DNA of 47,963 nt. It comes from an uncultured Muribaculaceae bacterium (lineage in GTDB: Bacteria; Bacteroidota; Bacteroidia; Bacteroidales; Muribaculaceae). Numbering within the stretch: the stretch's first letter is position 1; each line of letters begins with the position of its first letter. The position numbers and the translations under genes are program-made. The notes below the pieces were generated by a model. That model saw only the letters and a list, made by a program, of their open reading frames with translations. It ran no database searches and had not been told where the DNA came from. Shown here one piece after another: positions 1-42,644 of the stretch. The stretch is taken from the NCBI GenBank assembly GCA_947625935.1, contig CANQQE010000026.1, positions 1 through 47,963 on the forward strand, written 5' to 3'.

Positions 1-28
1 TGCCAATAATGCGGAGAGAATGCTCCCG
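1..28. repeat. Terminal direct repeat (circular contig overlap)
   Basis: The first 28 bases are identical to the last 28 (47936-47963). This is what a circular or circularly permuted genome looks like when a contig is closed on itself. The unit genome is therefore about 47,935 bp, and features at the two ends are contiguous. Confidence 0.93.
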
Positions 29-62
29 ATAGTTGTCTACCCGACTGTCGGGAGTTTATTTT
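23..62 (+). terminator. Hairpin 2 and U-tail of junction RNA A (terminator)
   Basis: CTCCCGA (23-29) pairs perfectly with TCGGGAG (48-54) and is followed by a T-rich tail (55-62), a Rho-independent terminator shape. The 18-nt loop contains GTCTACC (35-41), the exact reverse complement of GGTAGAC in the loop of the preceding hairpin (47915-47921). It probably ends RNA A, which starts near 47887. Confidence 0.7.
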
Positions 63-92
63 ATAATAATATATATAAATATGGGAGTATGT

Positions 93-620
93 ATGGAATT
101 AAAGATTGAATATATAGATGTAGACAAATTGACGCCATACGACAAGAATACACGCAAGCACGAAAAATTCGACGTTGACGTGATTGCAAAGTCAATCGAG
201 AAATACGGCTTCGACGACCCGATAGGAATTTGGGGCGACAAAAATACCGTTGTCGAGGGGCACGGTCGTCTTTTAGCCGCAAAACAACTCGGCATGGACA
301 AAGTGCCGTGCATACGGCTTGACCACCTCACGGACGAACAGCGGCGTGAATATGCGATAATGCACAATAAGAGCGCGGAGCAAAGCGCATGGGATTTTGA
401 CCTACTTTCCGAAGAGTTGTCAGACCTCGACCTTGAAGATTTTGGGCTGGATTGGGGACTTCCCCAAGATGAGGGAACGCCGCAAGTCGAAAGAAAACCC
501 GTTGAAATCGACGGCAATCAATATCAAATTATTATCGATTGCGCAGATGAAATCGAACAAAAAGAAATGTATAATAAATTGCAAGATATGGGGATAGAAT
601 GCAGAACTTCGACATTATAA
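93..620 (+). CDS. ParB/sulfiredoxin-fold domain protein
   Basis: 175 aa. The ATG at 93 is chosen because GGGAG lies about 7 nt upstream; an upstream in-frame ATG at 33 falls inside the terminator hairpin. Residues 10-75 match the ParB N-terminal fold: a 'DKLTPYDKNTRKH' opening, then a VEGHGRLLAA box at 54-63 corresponding to the ParB GxxR nucleotide-binding loop. A second small alpha/beta segment (about 140-175) ends in CRTSTL. In phages such proteins are DNA-binding or nuclease-like and often sit beside a P-loop protein, as here: the next gene overlaps its end. There is no ParA or plasmid partition context, so chromosome-style partitioning is not implied. The family fold is well supported; the role is not. 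Confidence 0.82.
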   Translation: MELKIEYIDVDKLTPYDKNTRKHEKFDVDVIAKSIEKYGFDDPIGIWGDKNTVVEGHGRLLAAKQLGMDKVPCIRLDHLTDEQRREYAIMHNKSAEQSAWDFDLLSEELSDLDLEDFGLDWGLPQDEGTPQVERKPVEIDGNQYQIIIDCADEIEQKEMYNKLQDMGIECRTSTL

Positions 621-1054
621 AAAAATCAGATATAAAACAAACATATCGTGTCGCTCGTATTATGAGCGATTTTGACGTGAAAACGGAACATACAAACGAA
701 CGTTTCACGGGACAATTAGATTTGCCCGAAAAATGGAGTATCGGCGTTATAGTCGGCGCAAGCGGCACAGGAAAAACGACTATTGCGAAAGAATTGTTTT
801 CGGATTGTTACGTCAAAGATTTGATTTATACAGCGTCAAGTGTCATTGACGATATGCCGAAAAACGTTGCTGTTGTGCAAAGGGCTATCGCAGAACTTGA
901 AAAGTACAAAAAAGCGTTTGAGTTGGCGTGCAGAGAGGTTGCCTCGTACACAGTTTGTATTTGGTGCGATGATAATTCGGGGTGTGACAACTGCAAAATA
1001 TTGCAATCAATTAAAGCAAAGTTTTTAGGGTGGACGGAGGCGGACGATGAGTGA
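599..1054 (+). CDS. Chimeric P-loop protein: truncated ABC-type ATPase (COG2401-like) joined to a Cys-containing tail
   Basis: 151 aa, overlapping the ParB-fold gene by 22 nt. Residues 10-88 resemble the N-terminus of the phage ABC ATPase/acetyltransferase family (COG2401), including a Walker A GASGTGKTT at 53-61, and reach an 'SVIDDMPK' point. There the ATPase stops. No signature motif, Walker B or acetyltransferase domain follows. From 'MPKN' onward the sequence instead matches the gene at 9324 (residues 26-50 of that protein) and ends in a Cys cluster (C120, C123, C129, C132). The junction falls on a stretch both parents could share (about ATGCC-AAAAACGTTG). It reads as a deletion or recombination fusion. 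ATPase activity is unlikely without Walker B. Confidence 0.75.
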   Translation: MQNFDIIKKSDIKQTYRVARIMSDFDVKTEHTNERFTGQLDLPEKWSIGVIVGASGTGKTTIAKELFSDCYVKDLIYTASSVIDDMPKNVAVVQRAIAELEKYKKAFELACREVASYTVCIWCDDNSGCDNCKILQSIKAKFLGWTEADDE

Positions 1055-1361
1055 CAAAGAAATACAACTATTGCAAGAGAAATTGGAGTTTGCGGAAAAA
1101 TCTTCACAACAGTTGATAGAGCGGTATTTTGAGCAAGAGCGTAAAATTCGAGACTTGAACAAACAGATTGCCAACGCAGATGTAGAGCGTGACAAGGCAG
1201 TGGAGCGAGCCGTCAAAGATACAAAGTTTACGGTTGAGAAAGACACTGTGCAAAAGGTGTGCGACATTATCGACGATTGCATAGGGCAGGCGGTGTTTGA
1301 GTACACGGACAAGGTGCGCAAAAGTTACAAGATACCGACAAAGTACGGTTACGAAGAGTGA
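1047..1361 (+). CDS. Coiled-coil protein of unknown function
   Basis: 104 aa, with a GGAGG ribosome site about 9 nt upstream and a short overlap with the preceding gene. Residues 1-70 are highly charged with heptad-like spacing (MSDKEIQLLQEKLEF...), predicting a long coiled coil. The C-terminus is short and aromatic (KYGYEE). No family is recognised. It is cotranscribed with the ParB/P-loop genes and the AbrB-like gene 11 nt downstream. Confidence 0.7.
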   Translation: MSDKEIQLLQEKLEFAEKSSQQLIERYFEQERKIRDLNKQIANADVERDKAVERAVKDTKFTVEKDTVQKVCDIIDDCIGQAVFEYTDKVRKSYKIPTKYGYEE

Positions 1362-1371
1362 GGTGTAGATA

Positions 1372-1641
1372 ATGAGCAATAAAGTAGGCAGTGCGTGTGA
1401 GCGGTGTATGCACTATGTAGATTTTGGACACGGCGGTATTTGCGCCTATAACGGGCAATGTTACGGAACGCAAACACGGCGTACAGGGCGAATTTGGAGC
1501 GTAGACGGCAAAGTAGACGGACAAGGCAGAGTACATTTACCGAGGAAACTTGCAAAGCAGATCGGGGTTGACTTTGGAGACACGGTGCAGTTTGAGAAAC
1601 GCGACGGCGAAAAGTTTATACGGATTTACAAGGGGGAATAA
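1372..1641 (+). CDS. AbrB/SpoVT-like regulator with Cys-rich N-terminus
   Basis: 89 aa. Residues 47-87 (GKVDGQGRVHLPRKLAKQIG..GDTVQFEKRDG) match the SpoVT/AbrB swapped-hairpin DNA-binding fold, whose usual start is 'vd.kGRv.iPk.lR..lgi..Gd.v.i'. Residues 9-30 hold four Cys and two His (CERC..H...HGGIC..C) that could bind zinc, an unusual addition to an AbrB domain. AbrB proteins are dimeric or tetrameric transcription regulators. The target here is unknown; self-regulation of this early cluster is a guess. Confidence 0.7.
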   Translation: MSNKVGSACERCMHYVDFGHGGICAYNGQCYGTQTRRTGRIWSVDGKVDGQGRVHLPRKLAKQIGVDFGDTVQFEKRDGEKFIRIYKGE

Positions 1642-1645
1642 AAAA

Positions 1646-1996
1646 ATGACAGTAGTTGATAACGATTGGAACAAGTTTTTTGAAGAAGAATTCCGCAAAG
1701 GCTTTGCGCCCGATATGAACGCAAAAATGAGCATAAAAGATTTTTGCACGCCTGACGGCAGACGGAGTTATGCAACGGTAGAAATTGACGGCGTTATATA
1801 CGAGGTACACTATTGGTACGCACAAGCCTATATGCCCGTCAAAGACCCGAATTACATAATGGATTATTCTTTTATGACTAAAGTAAACTCTCCCGATTAT
1901 CCGAATTTGTCAAAATGGGGTGTTCGTTTTGAAACTACAAAAGACAATTTGATTACTGTAAAACGGTTTAACAGTTATTTTGGGAGCAAAAAATGA
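1646..1996 (+). CDS. Hypothetical protein
   Basis: 116 aa. The ATG at 1646 is chosen over an upstream in-frame ATG at 1550 because AAGGGGGAA lies just upstream and the earlier start would run through the AbrB-like gene. The sequence is acidic and aromatic, soluble, with no recognised domain (contains GVIYEVHYWYAQAYMPV). Its end overlaps the next start (ATGAC). Confidence 0.65.
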   Translation: MTVVDNDWNKFFEEEFRKGFAPDMNAKMSIKDFCTPDGRRSYATVEIDGVIYEVHYWYAQAYMPVKDPNYIMDYSFMTKVNSPDYPNLSKWGVRFETTKDNLITVKRFNSYFGSKK

Positions 1997-2349
1997 CAGA
2001 AAAAGAAAAATTATATGAAGAGATAAAAAACGAAAGTTTGTTTACGACGGAGTATGTAGATTTGAATTTCAGCGGAGAGCGGCGAATGCTTGAAATGTTA
2101 GGTGCGTTAAACAGAGTTATAGAGAGTATGCAGACGTTCCACAATCTATACGACGGTAGCGGATTAGAACATCAGCACCGTGATTATGACCTACAAGAAG
2201 TTGAAAATCTACTAAGTCAACTGGAAGTTATGAGAGAGGACTTGTTTTCAAATTCGGTAAATTGGAATAGGATTTGTGAGTTGGGATTTGAGCATTGCGA
2301 CAATATTGAGAATTTACTAAGAAACTTACAAAAAAGTGTTGACAAATAA
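1993..2349 (+). CDS. Paralogous small protein, copy B (paired with RNA B)
   Basis: 118 aa, predicted all-helical. It is clearly homologous over its length to the protein at 47503: both share GERRMLEMLGALNR and a run ending NWNRICELGF. A 47-nt stretch (2224-2270) is base-for-base identical to 47737-47783, which implies recent duplication or gene conversion. Its 3' end overlaps a TTGACA promoter that drives a structured RNA. The same arrangement follows the other copy. No family is recognised. The constant pairing with an adjacent RNA suggests an RNA-linked role, which is inference. Confidence 0.75.
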   Translation: MTEKEKLYEEIKNESLFTTEYVDLNFSGERRMLEMLGALNRVIESMQTFHNLYDGSGLEHQHRDYDLQEVENLLSQLEVMREDLFSNSVNWNRICELGFEHCDNIENLLRNLQKSVDK

Positions 2350-2367
2350 TTTACTTTGTAGTAAGAT
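2339..2367 (+). promoter_or_regulatory. Sigma-70-type promoter for RNA B
   Basis: TTGACA (2339-2344), 17-nt spacer, TAAGAT (2362-2367). It lies across the stop codon of the 1993 gene and points into the structured RNA, with a start expected near 2374. Confidence 0.75.
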
Positions 2368-2373
2368 AGTATA

Positions 2374-2533
2374 GGTGAGTAACGGAAACTAACCGTAATA
2401 TATGGCAAGTCCGTGATACGCTAAACTCCGTATTTGGGCAGCACACCAAAACGGGAAAAGCAACTGAATACGGGGTATAACGAACTCATAACCGAAAGTC
2501 GTGCTGGGCGAGTAGGTTATGGGTTTTGTTTTA
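2374..2533 (+). ncRNA. Structured RNA B: two hairpins with complementary loops, terminator-ended
   Basis: About 160 nt between the promoter and a T-rich tail, with no convincing ORF. Hairpin 1 pairs ACTCCGTATTT (2425-2435) with GAATACGGGGT (2466-2476), 11 bp with G-U wobbles and a 30-nt loop. Hairpin 2 pairs AACTCATAACC (2483-2493) with GGTTATGGGTT (2515-2525), 11 bp with a 21-nt loop, then TTTTGTTTTA. Loop 1 contains CAGCAC (2439-2444) and loop 2 contains GTGCTG (2501-2506), exact complements able to kiss in cis or between molecules. The layout repeats with different bases in junction RNA A. No named RNA family is recognised. Confidence 0.68.
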
Positions 2534-2557
2534 TATAATTATACACATAAATAGGAT

Positions 2558-2725
2558 ATGACAGATAATAATAGACAAAGAGCTGAACGTGGTAGTAAGA
2601 CAAACGAAGAGTTTGCTAAACGAGTGAAAAGAGAGTGGATGCGCTATTGGGGTAAGTACGACAAGCCGTTTGAGTTCAATATAGCAGTGACGGATTTGCA
2701 TGAGCAAGAGGAAACAAAGAAATGA
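2558..2725 (+). CDS. Small basic hypothetical protein
   Basis: 55 aa, starting TDNNRQRAERGSKTNEEFAKRVKREWMRYW. Charged N-terminal helix, soluble. The start is preceded by 'aatagg', a moderate ribosome site. The stop overlaps the methyltransferase start (ATGA), so translation is probably coupled. Function unknown; it may be a methyltransferase accessory by position only. Confidence 0.6.
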   Translation: MTDNNRQRAERGSKTNEEFAKRVKREWMRYWGKYDKPFEFNIAVTDLHEQEETKK

Positions 2726-3957
2726 ACAATCAACAAGTTTCTATTTGGGACGGGCAAACACCATTAAAAATCAATAAACCGATACGGCTTGTGGAGTTAT
2801 TCGCGGGTATTGGAGCGCAGGCGAAAGCACTTGAACGGCTCGGCGTGGAGTTTGAACATTATCGTATATGCGAGTTTGACAAATACGCTGTTACAAGTTA
2901 CAACGCGATACACGGCACAAACTTTTGCACAAGCGATATTCGGAACATCACGGGTGCAGACTTGGGAATAGTCGATACAGATAAATACTGCTACATAATG
3001 ACATATTCTTTTCCTTGCACCGATTTGTCGCTTGCCGGCAAGCAACAAGGTATGAAACGCGGGAGTGGGACACGTAGTGGGCTACTTTGGGAAGTGGAAT
3101 GGCTACTCAAAGATATGAGCGGATATATACCGCATCGCCACAAGCCTAACGGAAAAATCTTTTCTATGACACCGTGGGAAGATTGGTACAACCCACCAGA
3201 CCAAACAAAGTTGCCACAAATATTGCTTATGGAAAACGTACCGCAAGTGATAGGGCAAAAGAACATAGCGGACTTTGCGGAGTGGATAGCGTTTTTGGAC
3301 ACTCTCGGCTACACAAGTAAATGGGCGGTGCTGAACGCAAAAGACTTTAATGTTCCGCAGAATCGCGAACGGTGCTATATGGTGAGTTGGCTCGGCGATC
3401 ACAGCTTTTTCTTTCCACAAGGCACGGGGTGCAAACGAGTACTCAAAGATGTATTAGAAAAGAACGTGGACGAAAAGTACTACCTATCCGACAAAGGTGT
3501 GAAGTACATACAATCGCCTAAACGTCGTGGAGATACAGTGGTATGCGATGAAAACAGTCATATCGCGCCGACTGCTATAACGGCGAAAGGCAACAGCAAC
3601 TGGACGGGTAATTTTATAGCAAGTAGGACTGCCCCCCCCCGATACAGTAAGGCAATTAGAACAGGCGGGAGAGGAAGTCTTGACAGACACAGTTGGGATA
3701 TTGTTGTCGAACTGCGGCAGGACGATAAAGAAAGAAATAGCGATTGCACCGACTTTGATGGCGAGGGACTACAAAGGCTTCAACACTTATGGGCGACCGG
3801 GAGTGATAGAAGTGTGGCGCAAGAAGTGATCGAGAATGCGGACGGAGTACTGTTAGGCAAATCACCCGATTTTCAACGGAAACCTTTGCCAAACATAAGC
3901 AGAACGATTGACACATTAGGAATGAATGGGGTTGTAATATGGCAGAAAAAATCATAG
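2722..3957 (+). CDS. C5-cytosine DNA methyltransferase, N-terminal part; frame disturbed after a C9 tract
   Basis: 411 aa as read. C5-MTase motifs are clear: motif I LFAGIGAQ (26-33), motif IV SFPCTDLS with catalytic Cys at 99, motif VI ENV (171-173), motif VIII QNRER (213-217). A tract of nine C (3632-3640) follows at residue ~305. In the frame read here the next ~60 residues look non-coding, whereas the +1 frame gives IAPTLMARDYKGF..GVIEVWRKK, a typical target-recognition segment. Motifs IX-X are absent from this ORF and lie in the next one. The enzyme would methylate cytosine in host or phage DNA if the frames were reconciled. As written it lacks the C-terminal helix of the catalytic domain. 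Confidence 0.82.
   Translation: MNNQQVSIWDGQTPLKINKPIRLVELFAGIGAQAKALERLGVEFEHYRICEFDKYAVTSYNAIHGTNFCTSDIRNITGADLGIVDTDKYCYIMTYSFPCTDLSLAGKQQGMKRGSGTRSGLLWEVEWLLKDMSGYIPHRHKPNGKIFSMTPWEDWYNPPDQTKLPQILLMENVPQVIGQKNIADFAEWIAFLDTLGYTSKWAVLNAKDFNVPQNRERCYMVSWLGDHSFFFPQGTGCKRVLKDVLEKNVDEKYYLSDKGVKYIQSPKRRGDTVVCDENSHIAPTAITAKGNSNWTGNFIASRTAPPRYSKAIRTGGRGSLDRHSWDIVVELRQDDKERNSDCTDFDGEGLQRLQHLWATGSDRSVAQEVIENADGVLLGKSPDFQRKPLPNISRTIDTLGMNGVVIWQKKS
3632..3640 (+). repeat. C9 homopolymer tract inside the methyltransferase
   Basis: Nine consecutive C. Loss of one C would move translation into the frame that encodes a target-recognition-like segment (to a stop near 3829). With the G9 tract at 4056-4064 these are the only such long G/C runs noticed in the genome, and both lie in the same gene. 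This suggests phase variation or assembly error. Confidence 0.75.
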
Positions 3958-4488
3958 TGGCAGGAACGTTGAATGGTGGAGTATATGCGAAAATGCACGA
4001 GCAGAGCAGACGCGTATATGATACAGATGGACTTGCGCCGACACAAAATACGTGTGGGGGGGGGCAACTTGGAAACGAAGATAATTGAGCCGATAGCATA
4101 CGATGAGCAAAACGGCTATTTTAGGCAAGACGGAACTGTCGGAACATTGACAACGGACGGCAATAGTCCAAAACATAATAATCGTATTGTTGAAAATTGT
4201 CGAATACGCAAATTAACTCCGCGTGAATGTTTTCGTCTAATGGACTTCGACGATAAGGACTTTCTAAGGGCGAAGTGCAAACTCATCAACGACGATGAAA
4301 CAGCTCAATGGTTTTTGGAGCAAGAGAGCAAAGTAAATGCACGGACGATGACAAGGCAAGAGTGGAAAATATTTAGTGTGTATTTGCGCAAGAGATATGA
4401 GCGGACAAGCGACAGCCAGTGTTACAAACAGGCAGGTAACAGCATTGTGGTATCGGTGCTTGAAGCGATATTCAAACAAATGTTATAA
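3939..4488 (+). pseudogene. C5-cytosine methyltransferase C-terminal part, frame-broken at a G9 tract
   Basis: The reading frame opens at ATG 3939, overlapping the end of the N-terminal ORF, and reads AEKIIVAGTLNGGVYAKMHEQ..APTQNTCGGG into a run of nine G (4056-4064). Continuing in that frame stops at 4086-4088. With one G fewer it joins the frame ending at 4488, which carries the conserved C-terminal motifs: RKLTPRECFRLMDF (motif IX region) and QAGNSIVVSVLEAIF (motif X). A plausible-looking ATG at 3973 is only a shadow of this frame. Either a phase-variable gene caught off, a decayed gene, or a homopolymer sequencing error. Confidence 0.75.
4056..4064 (+). repeat. G9 homopolymer tract inside the methyltransferase
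   Basis: Nine consecutive G. A single-base deletion restores continuity between the target-recognition segment upstream and motifs IX-X downstream. Confidence 0.8.
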
Positions 4489-4496
4489 GGTGAGCA

Positions 4497-4682
4497 ATGA
4501 CACGGACGATCGAGCAGGTGCAAGCCGAAATAGATAGAGTAGAAACGGCTTTGAGACAGACAAAATCAAAGTATTTGCGGAGTGATTACCACAAATACCT
4601 AAAACGACTTTACAACGAGCGCAGACGGCTGAAACGATTTGCATTGATTGATGAGTTGATAGCGGTGCTAAACGGACAATAA
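4497..4682 (+). CDS. Small coiled-coil hypothetical protein
   Basis: 61 aa, with a GGTGA ribosome site 5 nt upstream. Strongly helical and basic: TIEQVQAEIDRVETALRQTK, then an Arg/Lys-rich stretch around NERRRLKRF. It follows the methyltransferase by 8 nt. No family is recognised. Confidence 0.6.
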   Translation: MTRTIEQVQAEIDRVETALRQTKSKYLRSDYHKYLKRLYNERRRLKRFALIDELIAVLNGQ

Positions 4683-4704
4683 AATATATATAGTAAGGTA
4701 AATA

Positions 4705-5073
4705 ATGATTACAAAAGGTTTATTTTCATCTAATACAGATATGTGGGCTACACCACAGTGGCTTTTTGACGAATTGGATAAAGAGTTCCATTTTACGATC
4801 GATGTTTGCGCAATAGCAGAAAATGCAAAATGTAAGAACTATTTTTCACCCGAAATGGACGGACTTTCAAAAAATTGGGATAGGGGGGTATATTGGTGTA
4901 ACCCGCCTTCAAGTGCAAGTTGGCAGGGCAGGGCAAAATACCGTTCGGCAAGTACTACAAGGAAAGCAGGGAAACGTTTGTTGAAAATAAAGGAGAATAA
5001 AAATGGCAAAATCATTACAACAGAACGAAAATGGCGAATGGGTAGAAGTAGATTATTTAGAAATAAGAAATAA
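4705..5073 (+). pseudogene. Truncated phage N6-adenine methyltransferase (Dam-like)
   Basis: Residues 10-68 match the phage Dam family: TDMWATPQWLFDELDKEF, DVCA, then the catalytic motif region YWCNPP (63-68). Instead of the usual NPPY/F and the C-terminal half, the frame runs into Ser/Arg-rich residues without resemblance to the family. The alternative frame from about 4914 reads FKCKLAGQGKIPFGKYYKES and ends at TAA 5000-5002, just before the next start, so it looks like the tail of a lost gene. The sequence is best explained by a deletion joining the dam 5' half out of frame to that tail. Catalytic activity is not expected. Confidence 0.72.
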
Positions 5074-5653
5074 AGAAATAATAGAAAAATTAGAACCTAC
5101 ATTAAAAGAATTTATTAAAGAAAAGAATTTGTCTTATTCTATGAAAAAGCCTGTAAAATTGGGGTACAGATTTACTACTCAATTGTACTTGGCATTATCG
5201 AAATACGGACAAATGTCGCCTGACAATGTGGCAAAATTAGATTATGATACAATCAACGATTTTTGGCTGAAATTTCTTGAATTGACAGCATATTACAATC
5301 GGTATTTTGAGATCGTATCTAATAGGCAACTGTTTTGTGCATTTATGGGAATCAACAATCGCATATACTTGAACTTGGAAAAAAGTCAGGACGAGGATAT
5401 AGCCAATCTTATGCGGGCGATCAATGACAGTTTTATCGGACTTGGATTTACAGCCGGGGAGAGTGGCGAGGCAAATCACATAGCAGTAAAGGCTCGACTT
5501 GGCGCAAAAGATGTCGGACACAATGTGGTGAGCGCGTCGGAAGAACTTGTCGCAAACGCTCTTACCGGTCAAAAATCACCGCAAGAGCTTGACCGCCAAT
5601 TGGCACGAATTTTGGGTGAGGAACTGCCTAAAAGCAAGAGATTAAAGCCGTAA
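5003..5653 (+). CDS. Conserved phage protein of unknown function
   Basis: 216 aa, with AAAGGAG 8-10 nt upstream of ATG 5003. Predicted largely helical and soluble. The N-terminus (MAKSLQQNENGEWVEVDY) and the centre (ELTAYYNRYFEIVSNRQLFCAF) have the look of a conserved gut-phage protein, and the C-terminus is Lys-rich. I do not recognise a function. A small-terminase-like DNA-binding role cannot be excluded, since no TerS was found next to TerL, but nothing in the sequence shows it. Confidence 0.7.
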   Translation: MAKSLQQNENGEWVEVDYLEIRNKEIIEKLEPTLKEFIKEKNLSYSMKKPVKLGYRFTTQLYLALSKYGQMSPDNVAKLDYDTINDFWLKFLELTAYYNRYFEIVSNRQLFCAFMGINNRIYLNLEKSQDEDIANLMRAINDSFIGLGFTAGESGEANHIAVKARLGAKDVGHNVVSASEELVANALTGQKSPQELDRQLARILGEELPKSKRLKP

Positions 5654-5684
5654 ACTAAAATTTACAAAAAGCTTTCAAAAAGTG

Positions 5685-5713
5685 TTGACAAGTTGGAGTG
5701 CTTGGTATATAAT
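5685..5713 (+). promoter_or_regulatory. Perfect consensus sigma-70 promoter for the 5.7-10.5 kb operon
   Basis: TTGACA (5685-5690), exactly 17 nt, TATAAT (5708-5713). It is followed 33 nt later by the serine recombinase start with its own AAGGAG site. It is the only clear promoter before the dense run of small genes, so it probably drives all of them as an early operon. Confidence 0.88.
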
Positions 5714-5745
5714 ATACTTGAAAAATGACAATAAAGGAGATTGTT

Positions 5746-6348
5746 ATGTGTAAAGTATTTGCATATATGAGAGTAAGCACATCTGACAAGGCGGCCAAAC
5801 AAGACTACGAACGGCAAAAATATCTGCTTTCTCACAGCGGTTTGGAATTTGACGCGGTATTCGAGGAACACATAAGCGGTGGCGTGCGTGGCGATCAACG
5901 GCAAGAGTTCAACAAAATGGTTGGCTTGTTGTCGGAAAAAGATGTTGTTTGTTTTACGGAGACATCGCGGTTCGGCAGAAATTATATTGATTGTTTTGAC
6001 ATGCTTGATATTATAACACAGGGCAAAAAAGCAACAGTAAAGTTTTTGAGCAACGGCATAACCTTAGAGGGTGGCGAAAAAATGAACCCATACACTTGGA
6101 TGACTGTTTCACAATTCTTTATTCAGGACGAATTTTTGAAACGGCAGATAGGTTACAACACCTCGATCGCTCTCCAACGCAAAAAGGAACAAGGTGTAAA
6201 ACTTGGTGCGCCGAACAAGTACGGTGAAGATGTAATTGCACAAATAGTCGAAATGAGAGAGCAAGGACAGACGTGTCAACAAATAGCAGACAAATTGGGA
6301 ATACCAAAGTCAACTATTGCAAGATTAGCAAGAGGAGGAAATAAATAA
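5746..6348 (+). CDS. Serine recombinase, resolvase/invertase type
   Basis: 200 aa. The ATG at 5746 is selected for AAAGGAG at 5-11 nt upstream. The N-terminal catalytic domain has YMRVSTSDK with the nucleophilic Ser at residue 11, then TETSRFGRN (the DRLGR-type conserved Arg block). The C-terminal ~45 residues form a helix-turn-helix (QTCQQIADKLGIPKSTIARL) as in Hin/Gin/Tn3-resolvase proteins. The size fits small invertases/resolvases, not large integrases. It could invert a segment, resolve genome multimers or act on a plasmid-like prophage. No target site pair was identified. Confidence 0.9.
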   Translation: MCKVFAYMRVSTSDKAAKQDYERQKYLLSHSGLEFDAVFEEHISGGVRGDQRQEFNKMVGLLSEKDVVCFTETSRFGRNYIDCFDMLDIITQGKKATVKFLSNGITLEGGEKMNPYTWMTVSQFFIQDEFLKRQIGYNTSIALQRKKEQGVKLGAPNKYGEDVIAQIVEMREQGQTCQQIADKLGIPKSTIARLARGGNK

Positions 6349-6638
6349 TGGATAAGGAAAAAGCAATACAACAGTGGAAAGCTCCGATAGAGTGGTTTAT
6401 CGCAAATGTAAAATGTTGTCATAATTGCGATCATTGGTGCGAAGATATGTGTGCGACAGAGCGTGCATACGCTAAAAGATTTGGCTGGAATATGTGTCCA
6501 CACAAAGATTTATTGACAGCGTTTGATGGTTATTGCGCTGATTATGAGGGGAACGCCTCGGAAGAAAATCTTATTGTCACATTGACGATAGAAGAGCGCA
6601 AGGCTTTGCTTACAGAAAGAAAAGAGGTGGGCGAATGA
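6348..6638 (+). CDS. Cys-rich small protein
   Basis: 96 aa, start overlapping the recombinase stop (AATAATGG). Residues 23-38 hold CCHNCDHWCEDMC, with two more Cys later, suggesting a zinc-binding fold. The C-terminal third is charged and helical. Function unknown. Confidence 0.65.
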   Translation: MDKEKAIQQWKAPIEWFIANVKCCHNCDHWCEDMCATERAYAKRFGWNMCPHKDLLTAFDGYCADYEGNASEENLIVTLTIEERKALLTERKEVGE

Positions 6639-6832
6639 AACAGGTAGATTTGATAGACAAAGTAAAGAAAGAAACAGCGCAGGATATATGCGGTACAATA
6701 ATTGCACGGTGTAATTTGGCGCGACAGGCTGAAATGAAAATGAAAAGAGCAACTGCGGTAGAGGCATACCAATATGTAATCGAGTTGGCAAAAACGGCAA
6801 TGGCTTTATATGGAGTAGAAGAGGAAGAATAA
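6635..6832 (+). CDS. Small helical hypothetical protein
   Basis: 65 aa, overlapping both neighbours by 1-4 nt (ATGA and ATAATGG junctions). Predicted all-helical and Ala-rich (AVEAYQYVIELAKTAMALYG) with an acidic end. No recognised domain. Confidence 0.6.
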   Translation: MKQVDLIDKVKKETAQDICGTIIARCNLARQAEMKMKRATAVEAYQYVIELAKTAMALYGVEEEE

Positions 6833-7155
6833 TGGAATTTATTGTTAAAAAATTCACAGTTGAAACAGTCAATTTTATCGTCGACGGGCATCGCGTAGGT
6901 GGAGCGGATGTGGAGAAAAATGGCGATGATATATGGGTGGAGAATTTTACGATTACGCCTGAGTATAGAGGGAAAGGATATGCTCAACAGGCTATTAAAA
7001 TGCTCATAGACAGCTTTGGCATAAACACATTGACTTGCGCCGTTGATAAGAAAGTGGCAATACATATTTACGAAAAGTTTGGGTTTGAGATTGTAGACGA
7101 AGGAATGCACGATTACGACGGACGATCTTATCTTATGAAGAGGGGCGAAAAATGA
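6832..7155 (+). CDS. GNAT-family N-acetyltransferase
   Basis: 107 aa. The GNAT core is clear: beta strand IWVENFTITPEYRGKGYAQQAIKML (two pieces, residues 34-58), with the acetyl-CoA pyrophosphate loop R46-G-K-G-Y-A51, followed by the motif B region 'IYEKFGFEIVDEGM'. It is a short, single-domain version. The substrate is unknown; phage GNATs can modify host proteins or nucleic acids. Encoded within an operon of small early genes. Confidence 0.85.
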   Translation: MEFIVKKFTVETVNFIVDGHRVGGADVEKNGDDIWVENFTITPEYRGKGYAQQAIKMLIDSFGINTLTCAVDKKVAIHIYEKFGFEIVDEGMHDYDGRSYLMKRGEK

Positions 7156-7415
7156 AAGATATGCAACTCGACATCTTTGGCGGTGCAACACCTATTGAAG
7201 AGTTGCCCAAGCCGACGAGCGGAAGAAAGTATAAAACAATGCAACGGATATATGGAACGACCGAGGGTAAGACCTGCAAGACGTGTAGACACTTGTTGAG
7301 GCAACATTGGAACAAGCGAAACTATTACAAGTGCGAGTTGTGGTATATAAGCAGTAGCGAGGCAACGGACATCAGGTTGAAAAATCAAGCGTGTGGGAGA
7401 TACGAAAAAAAATGA
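7152..7415 (+). CDS. Cys-containing protein with N-terminal clamp-binding-like motif
   Basis: 87 aa. Residues 5-9 are QLDIF, close to the bacterial sliding-clamp binding pentapeptide (QLxLF). Downstream, TCKTCRH, YYKCELW and ACGRYE give four Cys in a pattern typical of small zinc-binding phage proteins. It could dock onto the host DnaN clamp; this is inference from five residues. It overlaps its neighbours by 4 nt each. Confidence 0.65.
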   Translation: MKDMQLDIFGGATPIEELPKPTSGRKYKTMQRIYGTTEGKTCKTCRHLLRQHWNKRNYYKCELWYISSSEATDIRLKNQACGRYEKK

Positions 7416-7759
7416 AAGATTACAGGTTGAGCGAGATGCAAGCGATTTGCGAGAAAATGCATAATGAATTTGGCAAAAATGCTTGCAACCTATGCGACAG
7501 AGAAGTAAGCGAATTTTGCATAAAGGAATTTGAAAATTGTCCTTCTCATTGGGACGACATCGAGCCGCGCGATATGATTGAGTTGCCGTATAAGGACTAT
7601 GTGTTTGACGAAGAAGAACAGACCGACAATTGGTTTGTGTATTATCGGAGCACAGAGTTCAAATGTGTTGATTGCAGTTATTTTGATACCGAAGCAGATG
7701 CGGACGCATTTGTAAACGAGTTATTGCAAAAAGCGCAACAACTGAAAGGGGGCAAGTAA
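7412..7759 (+). CDS. Cys-rich acidic hypothetical protein
   Basis: 115 aa from ATG 7412, chosen because it overlaps the previous stop (ATGA). Acidic, with CNLCDREVSEFC and KCVDCSYF Cys pairs, likely zinc-binding. The C-terminal helix is Gln/Ala-rich. Function unknown. Confidence 0.6.
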   Translation: MKDYRLSEMQAICEKMHNEFGKNACNLCDREVSEFCIKEFENCPSHWDDIEPRDMIELPYKDYVFDEEEQTDNWFVYYRSTEFKCVDCSYFDTEADADAFVNELLQKAQQLKGGK

Positions 7760-7944
7760 TGGAACGGACAGTAACGAAAAAGCAAGTGCTTGACAGCATA
7801 GCCGTGATACAGCGATTTTGCAAAGAGCAGAAATTTTGTCAAAGTTGCATATTGCGTGAGTACGCTCCCGACCATTGGGAATGCAAGGTAAATGCGTATG
7901 ATTTGAGCGAATTGTACGATAAGATTAAAAGGGGCAAACAATGA
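7759..7944 (+). CDS. Small Cys-containing hypothetical protein
   Basis: 61 aa, preceded by GGGGG and overlapping its neighbours by 1-4 nt. Contains FCQSCILREYAPDHWEC, a three-Cys cluster with His, plausibly metal-binding. No family is recognised. Confidence 0.58.
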   Translation: MERTVTKKQVLDSIAVIQRFCKEQKFCQSCILREYAPDHWECKVNAYDLSELYDKIKRGKQ

Positions 7945-8102
7945 CAGTAGACATCAGAATAAACGGCACAGAAAAGGACGCAAAACTGCTGAAAAAGATA
8001 ATCAAGCAGTATATGGCAAAGACAAAGTCGATAGTGGAAAAAGACAACTGCGAGTGCTACATAAGGTTGATAGAAAAGGCAGTAGGAAAGTCAAAAGAGT
8101 AA
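7941..8102 (+). CDS. Small basic hypothetical protein
   Basis: 53 aa, ATG 7941 overlapping the previous stop (ATGA), with AAAAGGGGC upstream. Starts TVDIRINGTEKDAKLLKKI. Lys-rich and helical with a CEC motif. No family is recognised. Confidence 0.55.
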   Translation: MTVDIRINGTEKDAKLLKKIIKQYMAKTKSIVEKDNCECYIRLIEKAVGKSKE

Positions 8103-8127
8103 CAAATTGGTGCTATGTGGAGGAAAT

Positions 8128-8403
8128 ATGAAACAAGCAAGCGAAGAGACAAAAAGAGTATTGCAAGACATAATGTGCGAGATTGAGATTGACGCCGCCG
8201 ATATGTTACAGAAAATCGGCAATGACGAGCGAAATCGGAACTGCTATGTGCGTGACCTTTACGGGCACAAGGGCATATATCGAGGGCTGAAAAATGCCAA
8301 AGGCTTGATTATTGAGTATTGCAGAGAATTCTTGCACATCAGCGACGAAGAAACAATGCAAATGGCGAGAGGCGAGAGATACAAGGACGAGGTGAAAGAA
8401 TGA
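8128..8403 (+). CDS. Helical hypothetical protein
   Basis: 91 aa from ATG 8128, chosen for GGAGGAAAT immediately upstream. Charged and helical (QASEETKRVLQDIMCEIEIDAADM). No domain is recognised. The stop overlaps the next start (ATGA). Confidence 0.62.
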   Translation: MKQASEETKRVLQDIMCEIEIDAADMLQKIGNDERNRNCYVRDLYGHKGIYRGLKNAKGLIIEYCREFLHISDEETMQMARGERYKDEVKE

Positions 8404-8567
8404 CAGACAAAGAATTTGGAATAGAGCTTGTACGCAGGTTGCAGAAAGTGGTCGATACCTGCTCCACCTGCATCCATTGTTGCTTCGAGGTTGGCGACTT
8501 GGAAACCTGCTACGAAGGTATGAAAGCGTTTGCGGAAAAGGAGTTGGAAAATGATAACAGCGATTAA
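8400..8567 (+). CDS. Small Cys-rich protein
   Basis: 55 aa from ATG 8400, overlapping the upstream stop. Contains TCSTCIHCC, a dense Cys cluster, and one later Cys. Probably metal-binding. Function unknown. Confidence 0.55.
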   Translation: MTDKEFGIELVRRLQKVVDTCSTCIHCCFEVGDLETCYEGMKAFAEKELENDNSD

Positions 8568-8754
8568 GATAATTTTTTGGCTTGTCTCACCATTATGTTT
8601 GATTGCTGGTTTGATTGCCTGTTTATGTGGTGCATATTTCTTTTTCGAGGGGCTATTTAGCAAAAAAAACATAATATTAACAGTGTTGACAGGTTTGGTG
8701 TTGTTAGCGGTTGGTATTGTAGGGATAATGTTTTTGGCAGGGGTGATAAAATGA
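8551..8754 (+). CDS. Small two-helix membrane protein
   Basis: 67 aa from ATG 8551, chosen for AAAGGAG 7-13 nt upstream. Two hydrophobic segments (about residues 5-30 and 40-62) separated by FSKKN, so two membrane spans with a short loop. It overlaps the previous coding end by 17 nt. It might be an early membrane-acting protein; no homologue is recognised. Confidence 0.62.
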   Translation: MITAIKIIFWLVSPLCLIAGLIACLCGAYFFFEGLFSKKNIILTVLTGLVLLAVGIVGIMFLAGVIK

Positions 8755-8930
8755 CAAACAGGGAATGGCTCGAAAGTTTGAGCGACAAGGAATTGGCAGG
8801 TATAGTAACAGGATTTGTGGCAGGAAAAGTGATAGTAAATATAGGTTTGACCAATATGTATTATTGGGTAATGAAAGATTTTGAAGAGTGGTTACAAGCC
8901 GAACACGAGGAGAGCGGCAATGACAAATAG
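8751..8930 (+). CDS. 'NREWLESLSD' family protein, copy 1 (Cys-less)
   Basis: 59 aa. It begins TNREWLESLSDKELA and ends EEWLQAEHEES, the same ends as the next gene. The middle has lost the Cys pairs of the second copy and is instead hydrophobic (AGIVTGFVAGKVIV). A diverged tandem duplicate. Family members are common in clostridial phages as small zinc-binding proteins of unknown role. Confidence 0.6.
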   Translation: MTNREWLESLSDKELAGIVTGFVAGKVIVNIGLTNMYYWVMKDFEEWLQAEHEESGNDK

Positions 8931-9117
8931 GGAATGGCTTGAAAGTTTGAGCGATGAGGAATTGGCGCACACGCTCATAAAAATTTATAACATAAAATAC
9001 GGCATATGTAAAATGTGCAGTTATTGCGACCAAGATTGTGATGAAATAAGCTTGTCTTGTATGGACGGTATTGAAGAGTGGCTACAAGCCGAACACGAGG
9101 AGACAGACAATGGCTAA
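8920..9117 (+). CDS. 'NREWLESLSD' family small zinc-binding-like protein, copy 2
   Basis: 65 aa from ATG 8920, overlapping copy 1 by 11 nt. N-terminus TNREWLESLSDEELA, centre CKMCSYCDQDCDEISLSC (five Cys), C-terminus EEWLQAEHEE. The Cys pattern fits a small zinc knuckle between two conserved end motifs. Nucleotide identity with copy 1 at both ends shows tandem duplication. Confidence 0.65.
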   Translation: MTNREWLESLSDEELAHTLIKIYNIKYGICKMCSYCDQDCDEISLSCMDGIEEWLQAEHEETDNG

Positions 9118-9319
9118 GCGTGAATGTGAGTTTTGCAGAATGTATAAAAGGTTGCAAGAATTTGAAAAAAATCATTACGAAGCAGACTATCAGCCGAGAT
9201 ATTATGCATGTTTATATCATACATATTACGATAAAGAATATAAACAGGAGCGCGGTTTTAGTAGATACGGACGGGTACGATTGCATTACTGCCCGTACTG
9301 TGGAAAGAAATTAAGGTGA
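9110..9319 (+). CDS. Zinc-ribbon small protein
   Basis: 69 aa from ATG 9110. CEFC near the N-terminus and CPYCGKKL near the C-terminus form a classic two-knuckle zinc ribbon bracketing a Tyr-rich middle. Likely structural zinc; possible nucleic-acid contact. It overlaps the previous gene by 8 nt. Confidence 0.66.
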   Translation: MAKRECEFCRMYKRLQEFEKNHYEADYQPRYYACLYHTYYDKEYKQERGFSRYGRVRLHYCPYCGKKLR

Positions 9320-9323
9320 AAAT

Positions 9324-9590
9324 ATGGACGATATTATTAAAGAACTAAATGAAGTTGCGTTGGAATTAAGTTGGGGGTCGGTAGACAGAATTGACGGTAT
9401 GCCAAAAAACGTTGTTGTTGTGCAAAGGGCTATCGCAGAACTTCAAAAGTACAAAAAGGCATTGGCGTTGGCAAGCGAGGTTGCGGCAAGGGGCGATTGT
9501 GTAGGCCGAGAATGGAAGTGCAACAGCAAAGGTTGCGCCATATGTTGGCAGGAATTCTTTTTGAAACAAGCGGAGAGCGAGACGGATTGA
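9324..9590 (+). CDS. Cys-containing protein; parent of the 599 chimera's tail
   Basis: 88 aa. From residue 24 (DGMPKNVVVVQRAIAELQK and on to residue ~50) it matches residues 85-110 of the chimeric P-loop gene at 599, and both continue into a Cys cluster (C59, C66, C71, C74 here). It therefore appears to be the intact form of the module that was fused to the broken ATPase. Function unknown; the helix plus Cys cluster could be a small zinc fold. Confidence 0.62.
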   Translation: MDDIIKELNEVALELSWGSVDRIDGMPKNVVVVQRAIAELQKYKKALALASEVAARGDCVGREWKCNSKGCAICWQEFFLKQAESETD

Positions 9591-9592
9591 TT

Positions 9593-10060
9593 ATGACAGA
9601 ACAAGACAGAGAACTAATAATAAGATTATGGAATAGTAGAATGTCACTTAATAGTATTGCGCGTATGTTGCCATATCCGACAATGATCGCGAAACAGTAT
9701 GTGAACGAGGTAAAAGCAAGCGGTGCGCTAAAAGCAGAAAACCGTGTGATGACACATAAGCAGTTGATATTGACCGCCTATGCAAATGGAATGGTGAACC
9801 CACATCAGATTGCAAGTGAATTTGAATTACCGCTTAACAGTGTCCGCGCCGTGTTGAGTGCAGCAAAACTTAATCGAAAAAGACCTCCGCACAATTATGT
9901 GAAACGTTTACAAGCGAAACTATCGGACAAGACACAACAGATTCTTACAGATGTGCAACAGGGTTTGTCTAATGTGGAAGTGGCAAAAAAACACAACGTA
10001 ACGCGGCAATATGTTTACAAAATCAAAAAGAATTACACACAAATAATAGATAATCAATAA
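9593..10060 (+). CDS. Multi-helix-turn-helix DNA-binding protein
   Basis: 155 aa from ATG 9593. Three HTH-like segments are visible: MSLNSIARMLPYPTMIAKQYV (two parts, 16-36), NPHQIASEFELPLNSVRAVL (~65-85) and SNVEVAKKHNVTRQYVYKI (~125-143). This suits a transcription regulator, for example a late-gene or sigma-like activator. A small-terminase role is also conceivable because no TerS adjoins TerL. The spacing and triple HTH favour a regulator, with modest certainty. Confidence 0.65.
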   Translation: MTEQDRELIIRLWNSRMSLNSIARMLPYPTMIAKQYVNEVKASGALKAENRVMTHKQLILTAYANGMVNPHQIASEFELPLNSVRAVLSAAKLNRKRPPHNYVKRLQAKLSDKTQQILTDVQQGLSNVEVAKKHNVTRQYVYKIKKNYTQIIDNQ

Positions 10061-10078
10061 AGGGGGAAATATATATCT

Positions 10079-10246
10079 ATGGTAACACAAAGTGATCTAT
10101 TTAAGAAATTAGACAAGATATCTGAACAGTTGCGGGAAATATGCGAAGAAATGCAAGCAATGAATAAGGTAATAAAGACGAAACTATCTACCGCCCTACA
10201 ACAGTTCGCGACTAAGGCTAAGGAGAACGACGATGACGAAAATTGA
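10079..10246 (+). CDS. Small coiled-coil protein
   Basis: 55 aa from ATG 10079, with AGGGGG upstream. Helical heptad-like sequence (LFKKLDKISEQLREICEEMQ) with an acidic tail DDDEN. Its codons 39-43 (10195-10209) contain the 15-base unit CCTACAACAGTTCGC that recurs in the non-coding array 10567-10714. The stop lies inside the next gene's start region. Confidence 0.58.
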   Translation: MVTQSDLFKKLDKISEQLREICEEMQAMNKVIKTKLSTALQQFATKAKENDDDEN

Positions 10247-10541
10247 GAAACCGACATCAACAGAAGAAAACGGGGTGCGCGTACATATCGAATCGGACGC
10301 GGAAGATTATGGCACATTGTGCACTGACTATTTTTTCATAATCGGAGCGATGACAAAGGTTATCAAGGCAAAATTCGGCACAAAAGCGACAGCGGTGTTT
10401 GTAAATATCTTGCAGTCATTGCCACTTATATGCGCGAGCACAACAGATTGCATAACATTCAACGGCGAAGTGATCAATTCCGACACACAAGACGCACAAG
10501 ATATTCCTATTAGTACATATACAGAAAAGGGTGATAATTAA
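10233..10541 (+). CDS. Hypothetical protein
   Basis: 102 aa from ATG 10233, preceded by AAGGAGAACG and overlapping the previous gene by 14 nt. Predicted alpha/beta; central hydrophobic helix FFIIGAMTKVIKAKFG, acidic C-terminus. It is the last gene of the rightward early operon. No family is recognised. Confidence 0.62.
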   Translation: MTKIEKPTSTEENGVRVHIESDAEDYGTLCTDYFFIIGAMTKVIKAKFGTKATAVFVNILQSLPLICASTTDCITFNGEVINSDTQDAQDIPISTYTEKGDN

Positions 10542-10566
10542 ATATTTAGATATAAATTAGAAATAT

Positions 10567-10714
10567 CTACAACAGTTTTGCCGAAATAGTTTTTAATGGC
10601 TACAACAGTTTCCTTGCAACAGTTCGCCTAAACAGATTGCCTACAACAGTTTTTCCACCTGCAACAGATTTTGCCTACAACAGTTCGCATTGAAAAGCCT
10701 ACAACAGTTTTGCG
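10567..10714. repeat. Eight-copy irregular repeat array, consensus CTACAACAGTTTTGCC
   Basis: Copies have their AACAG cores at 10571, 10604, 10618, 10631, 10645, 10663, 10679 and 10703, at spacings of 33, 14, 13, 14, 18, 16 and 24 nt. Variants end in TTTTGCC, TTCGCC or GATTGCC. One more exact unit lies in the upstream small gene (10195-10209). The arrangement resembles iterons or protein-binding operators rather than CRISPR. It sits just beyond the rightward operon. Confidence 0.75.
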
Positions 10715-10985
10715 CCGATTTGAAAAAATAGCGCAAATATGAGCAAAAATCGAAGTCGCGCGGATCGCATATTCGGACGCGGGCGGCGGTCACGTTTGGC
10801 GGGCTGTGTGCGTGTCTCCGCGGCGTTTATGCCGGGCGCGTGTGTTTGTCGGTGCGGCGTTGCTTTGCCGTTTGTGGGCTTGTAGCGCGTTGATTTTTTG
10901 CGTTATATATTGCAATTTCAATTGTGACGGCTTGCAATGCGGTTTGTTGCCGTGTTTGTGTGCGGTTCGATAGGTTAAAAGCCAA
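10715..10985. other. GC-rich non-coding stretch
   Basis: No ORF here has a credible ribosome site. Base composition is clearly richer in G+C than the flanks (runs such as CGCGGCGTTTATGCCGGGCG). It lies beyond the terminators of the minus-strand island and is probably the decayed or transferred edge of that island. Confidence 0.5.
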
Positions 10986-11017
10986 AACAAAAAACCGCTT
11001 AAAATCAAAATAAACGG
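10986..11017 (-). terminator. Distal terminator of the minus-strand island
   Basis: Read on the minus strand: CCGTTT, 11-nt A/T loop, AAGCGG (one wobble), then TTTTTTGTTTT. Second of two tandem terminators closing the leftward operon. Confidence 0.6.
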
Positions 11018-11054
11018 CTTGCAAGCGTTCGGCGCGTCTTCGGTGTCGGAGCAA

Positions 11055-11087
11055 GAAAAAGCCCGCGGCGCGTTTGCGTTGCGGGCT
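11055..11087 (-). terminator. Proximal terminator of the minus-strand island
   Basis: On the minus strand AGCCCGC (11081-11087) pairs with GCGGGCT (11060-11066), with inner GC pairing, followed directly by TTTTTC. A strong intrinsic terminator about 70 nt past the last leftward gene. Confidence 0.8.
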
Positions 11088-11160
11088 GTTGTTCGTTTTT
11101 AATCGGCGATTTTTTCAATCTGTTTCATAGTATTTATTTGTCATTGTTTCCGATCTCCTT

Positions 11161-11349
11161 TTATTTTAGTATTATATTTATTATGTGTATTCTGTTTAAT
11201 ATGTCGCCGGTGGTGTAATTATATTCGCCCGTTCTGGCGTTGCGGATTAAATAGCCACCTTCCCCCGCGCGGAATATTTCCACCGTTGCGCCGTTGTGAT
11301 CCGTTGCAATTATCTTGTAAAATTTTTGCGTTGCTGATGCTTGTGTCAT
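11161..11349 (-). CDS. Small hypothetical protein, last gene of the minus-strand island
   Basis: 62 aa. The start at 11349 has AGGGGG 5-10 nt upstream on the minus strand. Predicted beta-rich core (KFYKIIATDHNGATVEIF, then GGYLIRNARTGEYNY) and a hydrophobic tail. Such short proteins travel with gut Bacillota mobile elements; the role is unknown. Confidence 0.65.
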   Translation of the reverse strand: MTQASATQKFYKIIATDHNGATVEIFRAGEGGYLIRNARTGEYNYTTGDILNRIHIINIILK

Positions 11350-11364
11350 TTTGTCCCCCTTTTT

Positions 11365-11436
11365 TTATTTATTTCTTTTTGCGATTTCTATTATAAACAT
11401 AATAAACGCGATCGGAATAATTAAAAGCCACATCAT
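11365..11436 (-). CDS. Tiny membrane peptide (23 aa)
   Basis: MMWLLIIPIAFIMFIIEIAKRNK: one hydrophobic span followed by a basic tail. It starts 6 nt after the stop of the upstream gene, with GGGAAG about 9 nt before the ATG. It could be a real single-span peptide or a chance ORF; spacing and composition favour real, weakly. Confidence 0.4.
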   Translation of the reverse strand: MMWLLIIPIAFIMFIIEIAKRNK

Positions 11437-11441
11437 AAATT

Positions 11442-12011
11442 TTATCTTCCCGCCGTGATGGCATAATATAGCGATGTTTCGCCAATTTCGTCCGTTTCTC
11501 TTGCCGTGTTGCAAATTTCGCGCAATTCCTTTTCGGCTTTTGCAATTGCTGCGCGGTAATTGGTAAAAGCCTTTTCGGCGATTTCTAATTGTTTTTTCAA
11601 AGTTTCAACGCGATTTTTATATATTTCAATTCTGTTTGCGATTGCAGCGCGGATTTCTTCGGCGTTCATTGGTGACGTTTTGCGCTGCCATATTCCGCCA
11701 TCGAAAACCGTTTCACGGCTTGCGCCTTTGTCTGGCAGCTGGTCGCAATAAAAATATATGTCTAATGTGTCGGAGTTGTAACCGTGTTTATTTTTATATG
11801 TAATTTCGATTGCCGGATGTGCTGCATCGTTTGGGCAACTTGTAGAAATGTGCGCACCCTCCAACGCGCGGCCGATCTGCGCAAATTCCGAATTGTCTTT
11901 CTTTTTGTGGATTGTGACCGCTTGCCAAGCAGCGAGCGCGGATTTGTAGTTGTCTAATTGTGTTTGTAATTCCGTTTTTACTTCTTCAATGTTTTGATTT
12001 CTGAAATACAT
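11442..12011 (-). CDS. Coiled-coil hypothetical protein of the island
   Basis: 189 aa, with AAAGGAGG about 8 nt before the ATG at 12011. Helical N-terminus (NIEEVKTELQTQLDNYKSAL), a small alpha/beta centre (EGAHISTSCPNDAAHPAIEI), and a long coiled coil at 115-175. No family is recognised. Cotranscribed with the genes on both sides. Confidence 0.68.
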   Translation of the reverse strand: MYFRNQNIEEVKTELQTQLDNYKSALAAWQAVTIHKKKDNSEFAQIGRALEGAHISTSCPNDAAHPAIEITYKNKHGYNSDTLDIYFYCDQLPDKGASRETVFDGGIWQRKTSPMNAEEIRAAIANRIEIYKNRVETLKKQLEIAEKAFTNYRAAIAKAEKELREICNTARETDEIGETSLYYAITAGR

Positions 12012-12032
12012 TTCTTTTTGCCTCCTTTTATA

Positions 12033-12668: not shown

Positions 12669-12673
12669 TTTTT

Positions 12674-13354: not shown

Positions 13355-13497
13355 TGTTTGTTGTCCTCCTCTTTTATTCTATCAACTATATTTTCTATTT
13401 GTATAATATAGTAATATTGTTGTTTTGTTAAATTTTTATTGTGAAATTTGAAATAGTCTATAATTTCTTTTAATTCATCTATAATTTTTTGGCTCAT
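13351..13497 (-). CDS. Small helical protein (48 aa)
   Basis: MSQKIIDELKEIIDYFKFHN, then KQQYYYIIQIENIVDRIKEE. The ATG at 13497 has GGAGG 10 nt upstream. Its start overlaps the previous stop (ATGA) and its stop overlaps the next GTG (GTGA), strong evidence of real operonic translation despite the small size. Confidence 0.62.
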   Translation of the reverse strand: MSQKIIDELKEIIDYFKFHNKNLTKQQYYYIIQIENIVDRIKEEDNKQ

Positions 13498-13778: not shown

Positions 13779-13809
13779 TGTTAATACCTCCGTATTTTAT
13801 GATACTTAT

Positions 13810-13837
13810 ATTATACCACATTAAATATACTTGTCAA
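13810..13837 (-). promoter_or_regulatory. Promoter of the minus-strand island
   Basis: On the minus strand TTGACA (13837-13832), 16-nt spacer, TATAAT (13815-13810). Consensus hexamers; the only promoter needed for the seven overlapping leftward genes. Confidence 0.85.
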
Positions 13838-13839
13838 CT

Positions 13840-14660: not shown

Positions 14661-14676
14661 CAAATAAATTTAATTA

Positions 14677-42641: not shown

Positions 42642-42644
42642 AAG

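Follow-up and report, generated by a model that had tools for sequence, protein, structure and literature searches.

A duplicated gene and RNA cassette with matching hairpin loops in a circular phage contig, read tentatively as a pair of promoter-proximal leaders

Phage HK022 encodes put RNAs, which fold into two hairpins directly downstream of a phage promoter and occur in two copies per genome that resemble each other and promote read-through, and in the packaging RNA (pRNA) of phi29-type phages loop pairing takes place between molecules. The phi29-type pRNA has two pairing, co-varying loops of 3-4 nt and a three-way junction and belongs to a phi29-type motor (PMC12670572), and the structured phage RNAs GOLLD and ROOL, of unknown function, show kissing loops in solved structures and form multimeric cages, GOLLD often exceeding 800 nt (PMC12286853). 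Small RNAs lie beside protein genes in AbiF/RNA modules, found also in prophages (PMC12373285), and in type III toxin-antitoxin systems, where the neighbouring gene encodes a toxin of a known family (PMC5772629, PMC5086642). Racr RNA-based anti-CRISPRs are small phage RNAs with their own promoter that mimic CRISPR repeats (PMC10651486).

We analysed the whole of contig CANQQE010000026.1 (47,963 nt; the window), in which two related genes, A and B, each overlap a putative promoter at their end and are followed by a structured RNA:

1993 to 2349, plus strand: gene A, encoding an acidic protein of 118 aa, predicted all-helical
47503 to 47877, plus strand: gene B, encoding a protein of 124 aa
2339 to 2367, plus strand: putative promoter of RNA A, TTGACA-N17-TAAGAT, its -35 box (2339) within gene A
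47852 to 47880, plus strand: putative RNA B promoter, TTGATA-N17-TAGACT, which overlaps the last bases of gene B
about 2374 to 2533, plus strand: predicted RNA A, its ends deduced from the promoter and the U-rich tail
47886 to 47963, plus strand: 5' part of predicted RNA B, start deduced likewise
1 to about 62, plus strand: 3' part of predicted RNA B, in which 1-28 repeat 47936-47963
2425 to 2476, plus strand: predicted hairpin 1 of RNA A, long form, 13 bp
2427 to 2455, plus strand: predicted hairpin 1 of RNA A, alternative short form, 8-nt loop GCAGCACA
2482 to 2534, plus strand: predicted hairpin 2 and U-rich tail of RNA A, terminator-like
47900 to 47953, plus strand: predicted hairpin 1 of RNA B, long form
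47902 to 47932, plus strand: predicted hairpin 1 of RNA B, alternative short form with 11 bp and loop UUGGUAGAC
22 to 62, plus strand: predicted hairpin 2 and U-rich tail of RNA B, terminator-like

Set beside these descriptions, RNAs A and B resemble phi29-type pRNA in being phage RNAs with two loops that can pair and that co-vary (here between two sequences), but they differ from it in a loop match of 6-7 nt, tandem hairpins, a terminator-like tail and an ordinary terminase in the same phage. They share with HK022 put the two hairpins past a promoter and the presence of two copies, whereas here hairpin 2 is terminator-like and the loops differ between copies. Like GOLLD and ROOL they are phage-encoded and structured, but they are well below the size that GOLLD often reaches and lack an Rfam match; their layout of RNA beside gene is that of AbiF and type III toxin-antitoxin modules, but proteins A and B match none of the known toxin families; and like Racr they are small phage RNAs behind a putative promoter of their own, repeat mimicry being a feature of Racr. 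No repeats were seen by eye in either RNA. The pRNA covariance model found no match in the window at the gathering threshold, nor around RNA A and the halves of RNA B at E up to 10, and the predicted folds of both RNAs consist of tandem hairpins with no three-way junction. Rfam as a whole returned chance-level lines only, with RNA B scanned as halves. Neither protein matched any type III toxin family, and no Abi_2 domain was found in either by Pfam at E ≤ 0.1. Among the literature matches listed, represented by titles and abstract openings, no such cassette was described, and the words kissing, cassette and packaging are absent from the main text of the review PMC12197685.

The first and last 28 nt of the contig were identical (1-28 = 47936-47963) and RNA A aligned with RNA B across the joined ends, which suggests a circular phage; we take the contig for a circle close to 47,935 bp in length, on which RNA B is complete only once the overlapping ends are joined. 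This 28-nt sequence occurred nowhere else in the assembly, and the 18 readable of 20 contig starts had no 28-mer in common. Local alignment of the whole RNAs scored 54, where shuffles averaged 25 and none of 1000 equalled the score. Piece by piece, the scores of hairpin 1, hairpin 2 and the AT tail were reached by 39, 50 and 6 of 1000 shuffles, respectively; the 5' part of RNA A (2368-2419) had no counterpart in RNA B (994/1000 shuffles as good), and a MAFFT alignment of the two RNAs was poor. Similarity between the copies was bounded by the gene start and by the end of the AT tail, and did not rise above shuffles in the 53 bases upstream of the genes or the 100 bases past the tails. Because these limits are sharp and the RNAs homologous, the sequences support duplication of gene, promoter, RNA and tail as one unit. 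Conservation between the two RNAs was no greater than neutral at d 0.8 (198/500). An initial annotation of this DNA had described the protein parts as conserved and the RNA loops as not; the proteins share 71% amino acid identity, and the RNAs, rather than being dissimilar, are alignable homologues.

The homologous genes of 118 and 124 aa named in that annotation are both present, and their identity makes them paralogues, in which a dN of 0.245 and a dS of 1.25 point to purifying selection on the protein. Differences fall at just 6 of 17 fourfold sites, and divergence between A and B may therefore be low. The 47-nt identical block that had been reported is exact (2224-2270 = 47737-47783) and contains 15 identical codons in a row (permutation P 0.00135). 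Synonymous changes were entirely lacking from it (P about 0.001), and gene conversion and extra constraint at the nucleotide level are candidate alternatives for its origin.

The proteins are strongly acidic (pI 4.6-4.7, charge -11 to -12) and gave no indication of RNA binding. The best match in family searches was phrog_26364, at an E value of 0.017; Pfam gave no match at E ≤ 0.1, a sequence search of solved structures gave only E ≥ 0.45, and a fold search with a modest model (mean pLDDT 73.6, pTM 0.48; the other four models had a mean pLDDT of 51-57) gave no match at E ≤ 0.001. No homologues were found in viral_contigs or genome_contigs (both pattern-based, with limited reach) or among phages and plasmids, and none was accepted in overlapping samples of 199, 395, 393 and 395 genomes. 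Two weak hits (E 3.1e-4 and 8.3e-4), the sole ones outside the phage, were rejected, the first lying within a 529-aa ORF that we take to be GldM-like and the other containing an internal stop and running across other frames. The sampled genomes are kin of the bin that holds the contig, so that their negatives weigh little because the bin may belong to the wrong phylum; genome_contigs is independent of the bin.

The phage capsid had relatives in 702 phage records, the best being Blautia phage Montmirail at 50%, with a partial match in one genome (G012) and none in viral_contigs; searches with the terminase brought up 12 phage records, all distant, and four genome matches, all weak, again with none in viral_contigs; and the 116-aa neighbour protein had no relatives in these searches. 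No near DNA match to the phage was found among 50,697 phage records. The contig may be mis-binned, as hinted by the nearest capsid being that of a Blautia phage and by ORFs, presumably GldL/GldM-like, in a genome of the same class. Shine-Dalgarno-like sites preceded 24 of 61 phage ORFs and 2 of 19 ORFs in six host loci, which are not a random sample. Another contig of the bin (C42) had a YvrJ match, and among 14 control genomes only Bacillus subtilis was positive for YvrJ.

The initial annotation had each gene ending inside the promoter of its RNA, and the -35 boxes do lie within genes A (2339) and B (47852), with 17-nt spacers, the stop codon of gene B overlapping the -10 box. Matches to the consensus alone were near chance around A (3 found, 2.3 expected). 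An A-rich motif upstream of the -35 box is common to A, B and the sites 5685, 42408 and 44907, and a model of these last three, picked by eye for their A-rich likeness, ranked A fourth and B fifth among 95,850 positions. A model of six plus-strand sites taken by a fixed rule (an exact TTGACA, a 17-nt spacer and 10/12 or better, A and B excluded) gave ranks 6 and 9 of 95,850, training sites included, five of the rule-based sites gave 6 and 8, and the three that had not been picked by eye gave 31 and 231. The case that the promoters of A and B look phage-class is good, chiefly through one subclass of sites. Downstream of the site at 44907 lies a 49-aa ORF (44960-45108) whose ribosome site is strong, presumably Arc/MetJ-like as judged by eye.

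Each RNA stands just before another gene or gene pair:

93 to 620, plus strand: ParB-like gene, first downstream of RNA B (phrog_620, E 8e-44); its ATG at 93 was chosen by ribosome site, the mechanical ORF being 33-620
2558 to 4488, plus strand: ORF of 55 aa and a C5 methyltransferase gene that is interrupted, both past RNA A

On the plus strand, 62-2338 and 2368-5684 contained none of the 20 best promoters of the three-site model and none of the 14 best of the six-site model, and with other top-scoring promoters of this class missing these operons would depend on read-through past hairpin 2; weaker sigma-70 matches lie inside them at 547, 4656 and 5220. The methyltransferase gene (2722-4488) is broken near a C run (about 3631) and a G run (about 4057), for which a frameshift, phase variation and an assembly error are candidate alternatives. 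The ParB-like gene had relatives in 335 phage records and on two further contigs, L003 and L004, where a conserved, structured-looking stretch precedes it (about 1-350 and about 7600-7960). Two repeats in this stretch change together between the two contigs, and it had no Rfam match at gathering. Elsewhere in the phage, the intergenic region 42640-42800 holds about five TTATCCACA-like boxes, counted by eye and presumably of DnaA-box consensus, and is a candidate replication origin, and a CTACAACAGTTTT-like motif, also seen by eye, is repeated in the intergenic region 10560-10710.

The double hairpin that had been claimed was recovered, followed by a U-rich tail, in both predicted RNAs, with fold z scores of -3.88 (A) and -6.45 (B). 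The RNA B window had the lowest z among 799 plus-strand windows, and no RNA A window was among the 25 lowest listed. A terminator scan, restricted to loops of 3-8 and so excluding hairpin 2 of RNA A, found 14 terminator-like sites in 1-15000 against 13.7 expected from shuffles. No plus-strand ORF of at least 50 aa lies within either RNA. Among the 13 pairs of hairpin 1, five are the same in A and B, two compatible, one lost on both sides, four broken and one lost on one side; among the 12 outer pairs of hairpin 2, five are the same, two lost on both sides and five face a one-sided gap.

A new point was that, in both RNAs, the sequence of loop 1 is complementary to that of the terminator loop:

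2439 to 2444, plus strand: RNA A loop 1, CAGCAC
2501 to 2506, plus strand: RNA A partner in loop 2, GUGCUG
47915 to 47921, plus strand: RNA B loop 1, GGUAGAC
35 to 41, plus strand: RNA B partner in loop 2, GUCUACC, one closing base included

This gives the proposal that each RNA recognises itself and not its sister a concrete basis, with 6-7 nt of complementarity within each RNA and uninterrupted matches of 2-3 nt from A to B. An interrupted duplex of B loop 1 with A loop 2 reached -9.5 kcal/mol, no better than shuffles (P 0.40). Against shuffles, the loop match had a P by length of 0.038 in A and of 0.015 in B (0.003 with closing bases), and by energy of 0.12 in A and of 0.026 or 0.004 in B. 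When the RNAs were aligned on sequence alone, four of the six kissing pairs were unchanged, one had changed on both sides and one was lost on both sides, with none broken; simulated neutral change kept a 6-nt loop match in 5% of cases and a 7-nt match in 1.2%. A tandem-hairpin descriptor, drafted with A and B already in view, picked up six tandem pairs with T tails on the plus strand, of which the two kissing ones were A and B, and two tandem pairs on the minus strand, one of them kissing. It found seven tandem pairs, none kissing, in both strands of 138 kb of other loci and no tandem pairs of this kind in Blautia phage Montmirail, and 1 of 100 shuffles contained at least two kissing pairs.

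In the predicted folds of both RNAs, the 5' strand of hairpin 1 can take a near or a far 3' partner, with z scores for the short and long forms of -3.02 and -3.84 in A and of -4.04 and -3.92 in B. The short form, whose 8-9-nt loop holds the kissing bases, was the first to appear as prefixes of growing length were folded, and the two forms alternated in RNA B. As rough sums that leave out opening and geometric costs, the short form plus loop duplex (-44.4 and -7.8 in A; -43.6 and -9.4 in B) came close to the long form (-52.2 and -49.4). In RNA B, freeing the loop sequences from the best fold takes 7.8, compared with 9.4 gained, and shorter loop pairings are unfavourable (+2.2, +3.6); in RNA A, forcing the short form leads the linker to pair with the U tail. 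Both 3' strands of hairpin 1 lie clear of hairpin 2, and the arrangement is therefore not that of a textbook antiterminator. Among the hallmarks of an attenuator, a promoter, alternative folds, an intrinsic terminator and an operon are present by prediction, and a fold that excludes the terminator hairpin was not found.

Considering these features together, we tentatively favour reading each RNA as a leader close to its promoter that carries a conditional terminator, short of an even chance and with a free small RNA close behind. The cassette of gene, promoter and structured RNA was duplicated in the circular phage, with RNA B as the putative leader of the ParB-like operon and RNA A as that of the 55-aa/methyltransferase operon. 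On the nascent RNA the short hairpin would form first, and its 8-9-nt loop could clasp that of the terminator; the long hairpin would compete with the short one, and the winning fold would set how often polymerase is halted at hairpin 2 rather than carrying on. Having co-changed in each copy, the loops should keep the two switches from cross-talk, and a ligand, protein A or B, or transcription speed are candidate triggers; the step from structure to switching is one that we infer. Consistent with such leaders, both RNAs follow promoter-like sites ranked high by the six-site model and end terminator-like close to the following gene, further top promoters of the same class are lacking from the downstream operons, the loop matches are uncommon by length among shuffles, the kissing pairs co-changed with none broken, the descriptor gives A and B as the only kissing pairs on the plus strand, and both forms of hairpin 1 recur at similar rough energies. 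Against them stand a sample of two paralogues, an A loop match that is ordinary by energy, ranks of 31 and 231 once the eye-picked sites are removed, the sigma-70 matches within the next operons, a post hoc descriptor that also finds a kissing pair on the minus strand, helices partly broken between the copies with RNA conservation no more than neutral, a divergence that may be low, loop matches that sometimes survive simulated neutral change, 3' strands of hairpin 1 that do not reach hairpin 2, and the opening cost in B and linker pairing in A. That the promoter rank hinges on the training sites shifted a little of our confidence from the leader to a free small RNA. The fuller proposal, of two insulated switch copies with the clasp re-coded in each and the adjacent protein as regulator, we consider improbable.

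A free small RNA of 112-160 nt, trans-acting from its own promoter and terminator on another RNA or protein, with the loop-loop contact as a tertiary core or a maker of homodimers, is a real possibility. The promoter-like starts, terminator-like ends and strong folds fit it, as does the lack of ORFs, and the hairpin-1 loop of RNA B (47931-47944) perfectly complements 14 nt on the plus strand at 23915-23928, within the gene 23260-23988. Only 1 of 300 RNA B shuffles did as well, the second ground for that slight shift from the leader to the small RNA. But this complement, the top result among searches of two strands with each of the two RNAs (four in all), lies far from any start codon, complements of RNA A reach at most 10 nt (297/300 and 299/300 shuffles as good), pairing with gene A/B mRNA is no better than in shuffles (20-78/100), and a free small RNA leaves unexplained why both copies sit directly ahead of another gene. 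The hairpins may instead be ordinary terminators, hairpin 2 ending the gene A/B mRNA, hairpin 1 being incidental 3' UTR and the loop match chance or inherited. The A loop match is modest by length and energy, a 6-nt match sometimes survives simulated neutral change, and terminator-like sites in 1-15000 are no more frequent than in shuffles, all of which suits this explanation; the resemblance of the upstream sites to other phage promoters, the loop changes that come in pairs, one substitution and one deletion, and the two-way hairpin 1 in both copies argue against it, and we judge it unlikely.

The partnership of protein and RNA that the initial annotation had envisaged, as a toxin-antitoxin, exclusion or scaffold system, draws on the joint duplication of gene and RNA within sharp limits, but the acidic protein, with its best family match at E 0.017 and no fold match at E ≤ 0.001 from a modest model, leaves it unsupported and in our view quite improbable. 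Its suggestion of a packaging RNA fits poorly: loops that pair and co-vary recall pRNA as described in PMC12670572, but a phi29-like ring built by intermolecular loop pairing is hard to reconcile with an ordinary large terminase (phrog_38, E 1e-22) and portal (phrog_64), tandem predicted hairpins in place of a three-way junction, two copies that do not match each other and no pRNA match in Rfam with RNA B scanned as halves, and we regard it as very unlikely.

If the favoured reading of conditional leaders is right, a clasp from loop to terminator would control transcription in this phage, and the two copies would offer a natural example of RNA switches that, once duplicated, stay insulated through loops changing in step. 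Were each a plain small RNA instead, it would still be one that Rfam does not match, next to a protein that no family matches.
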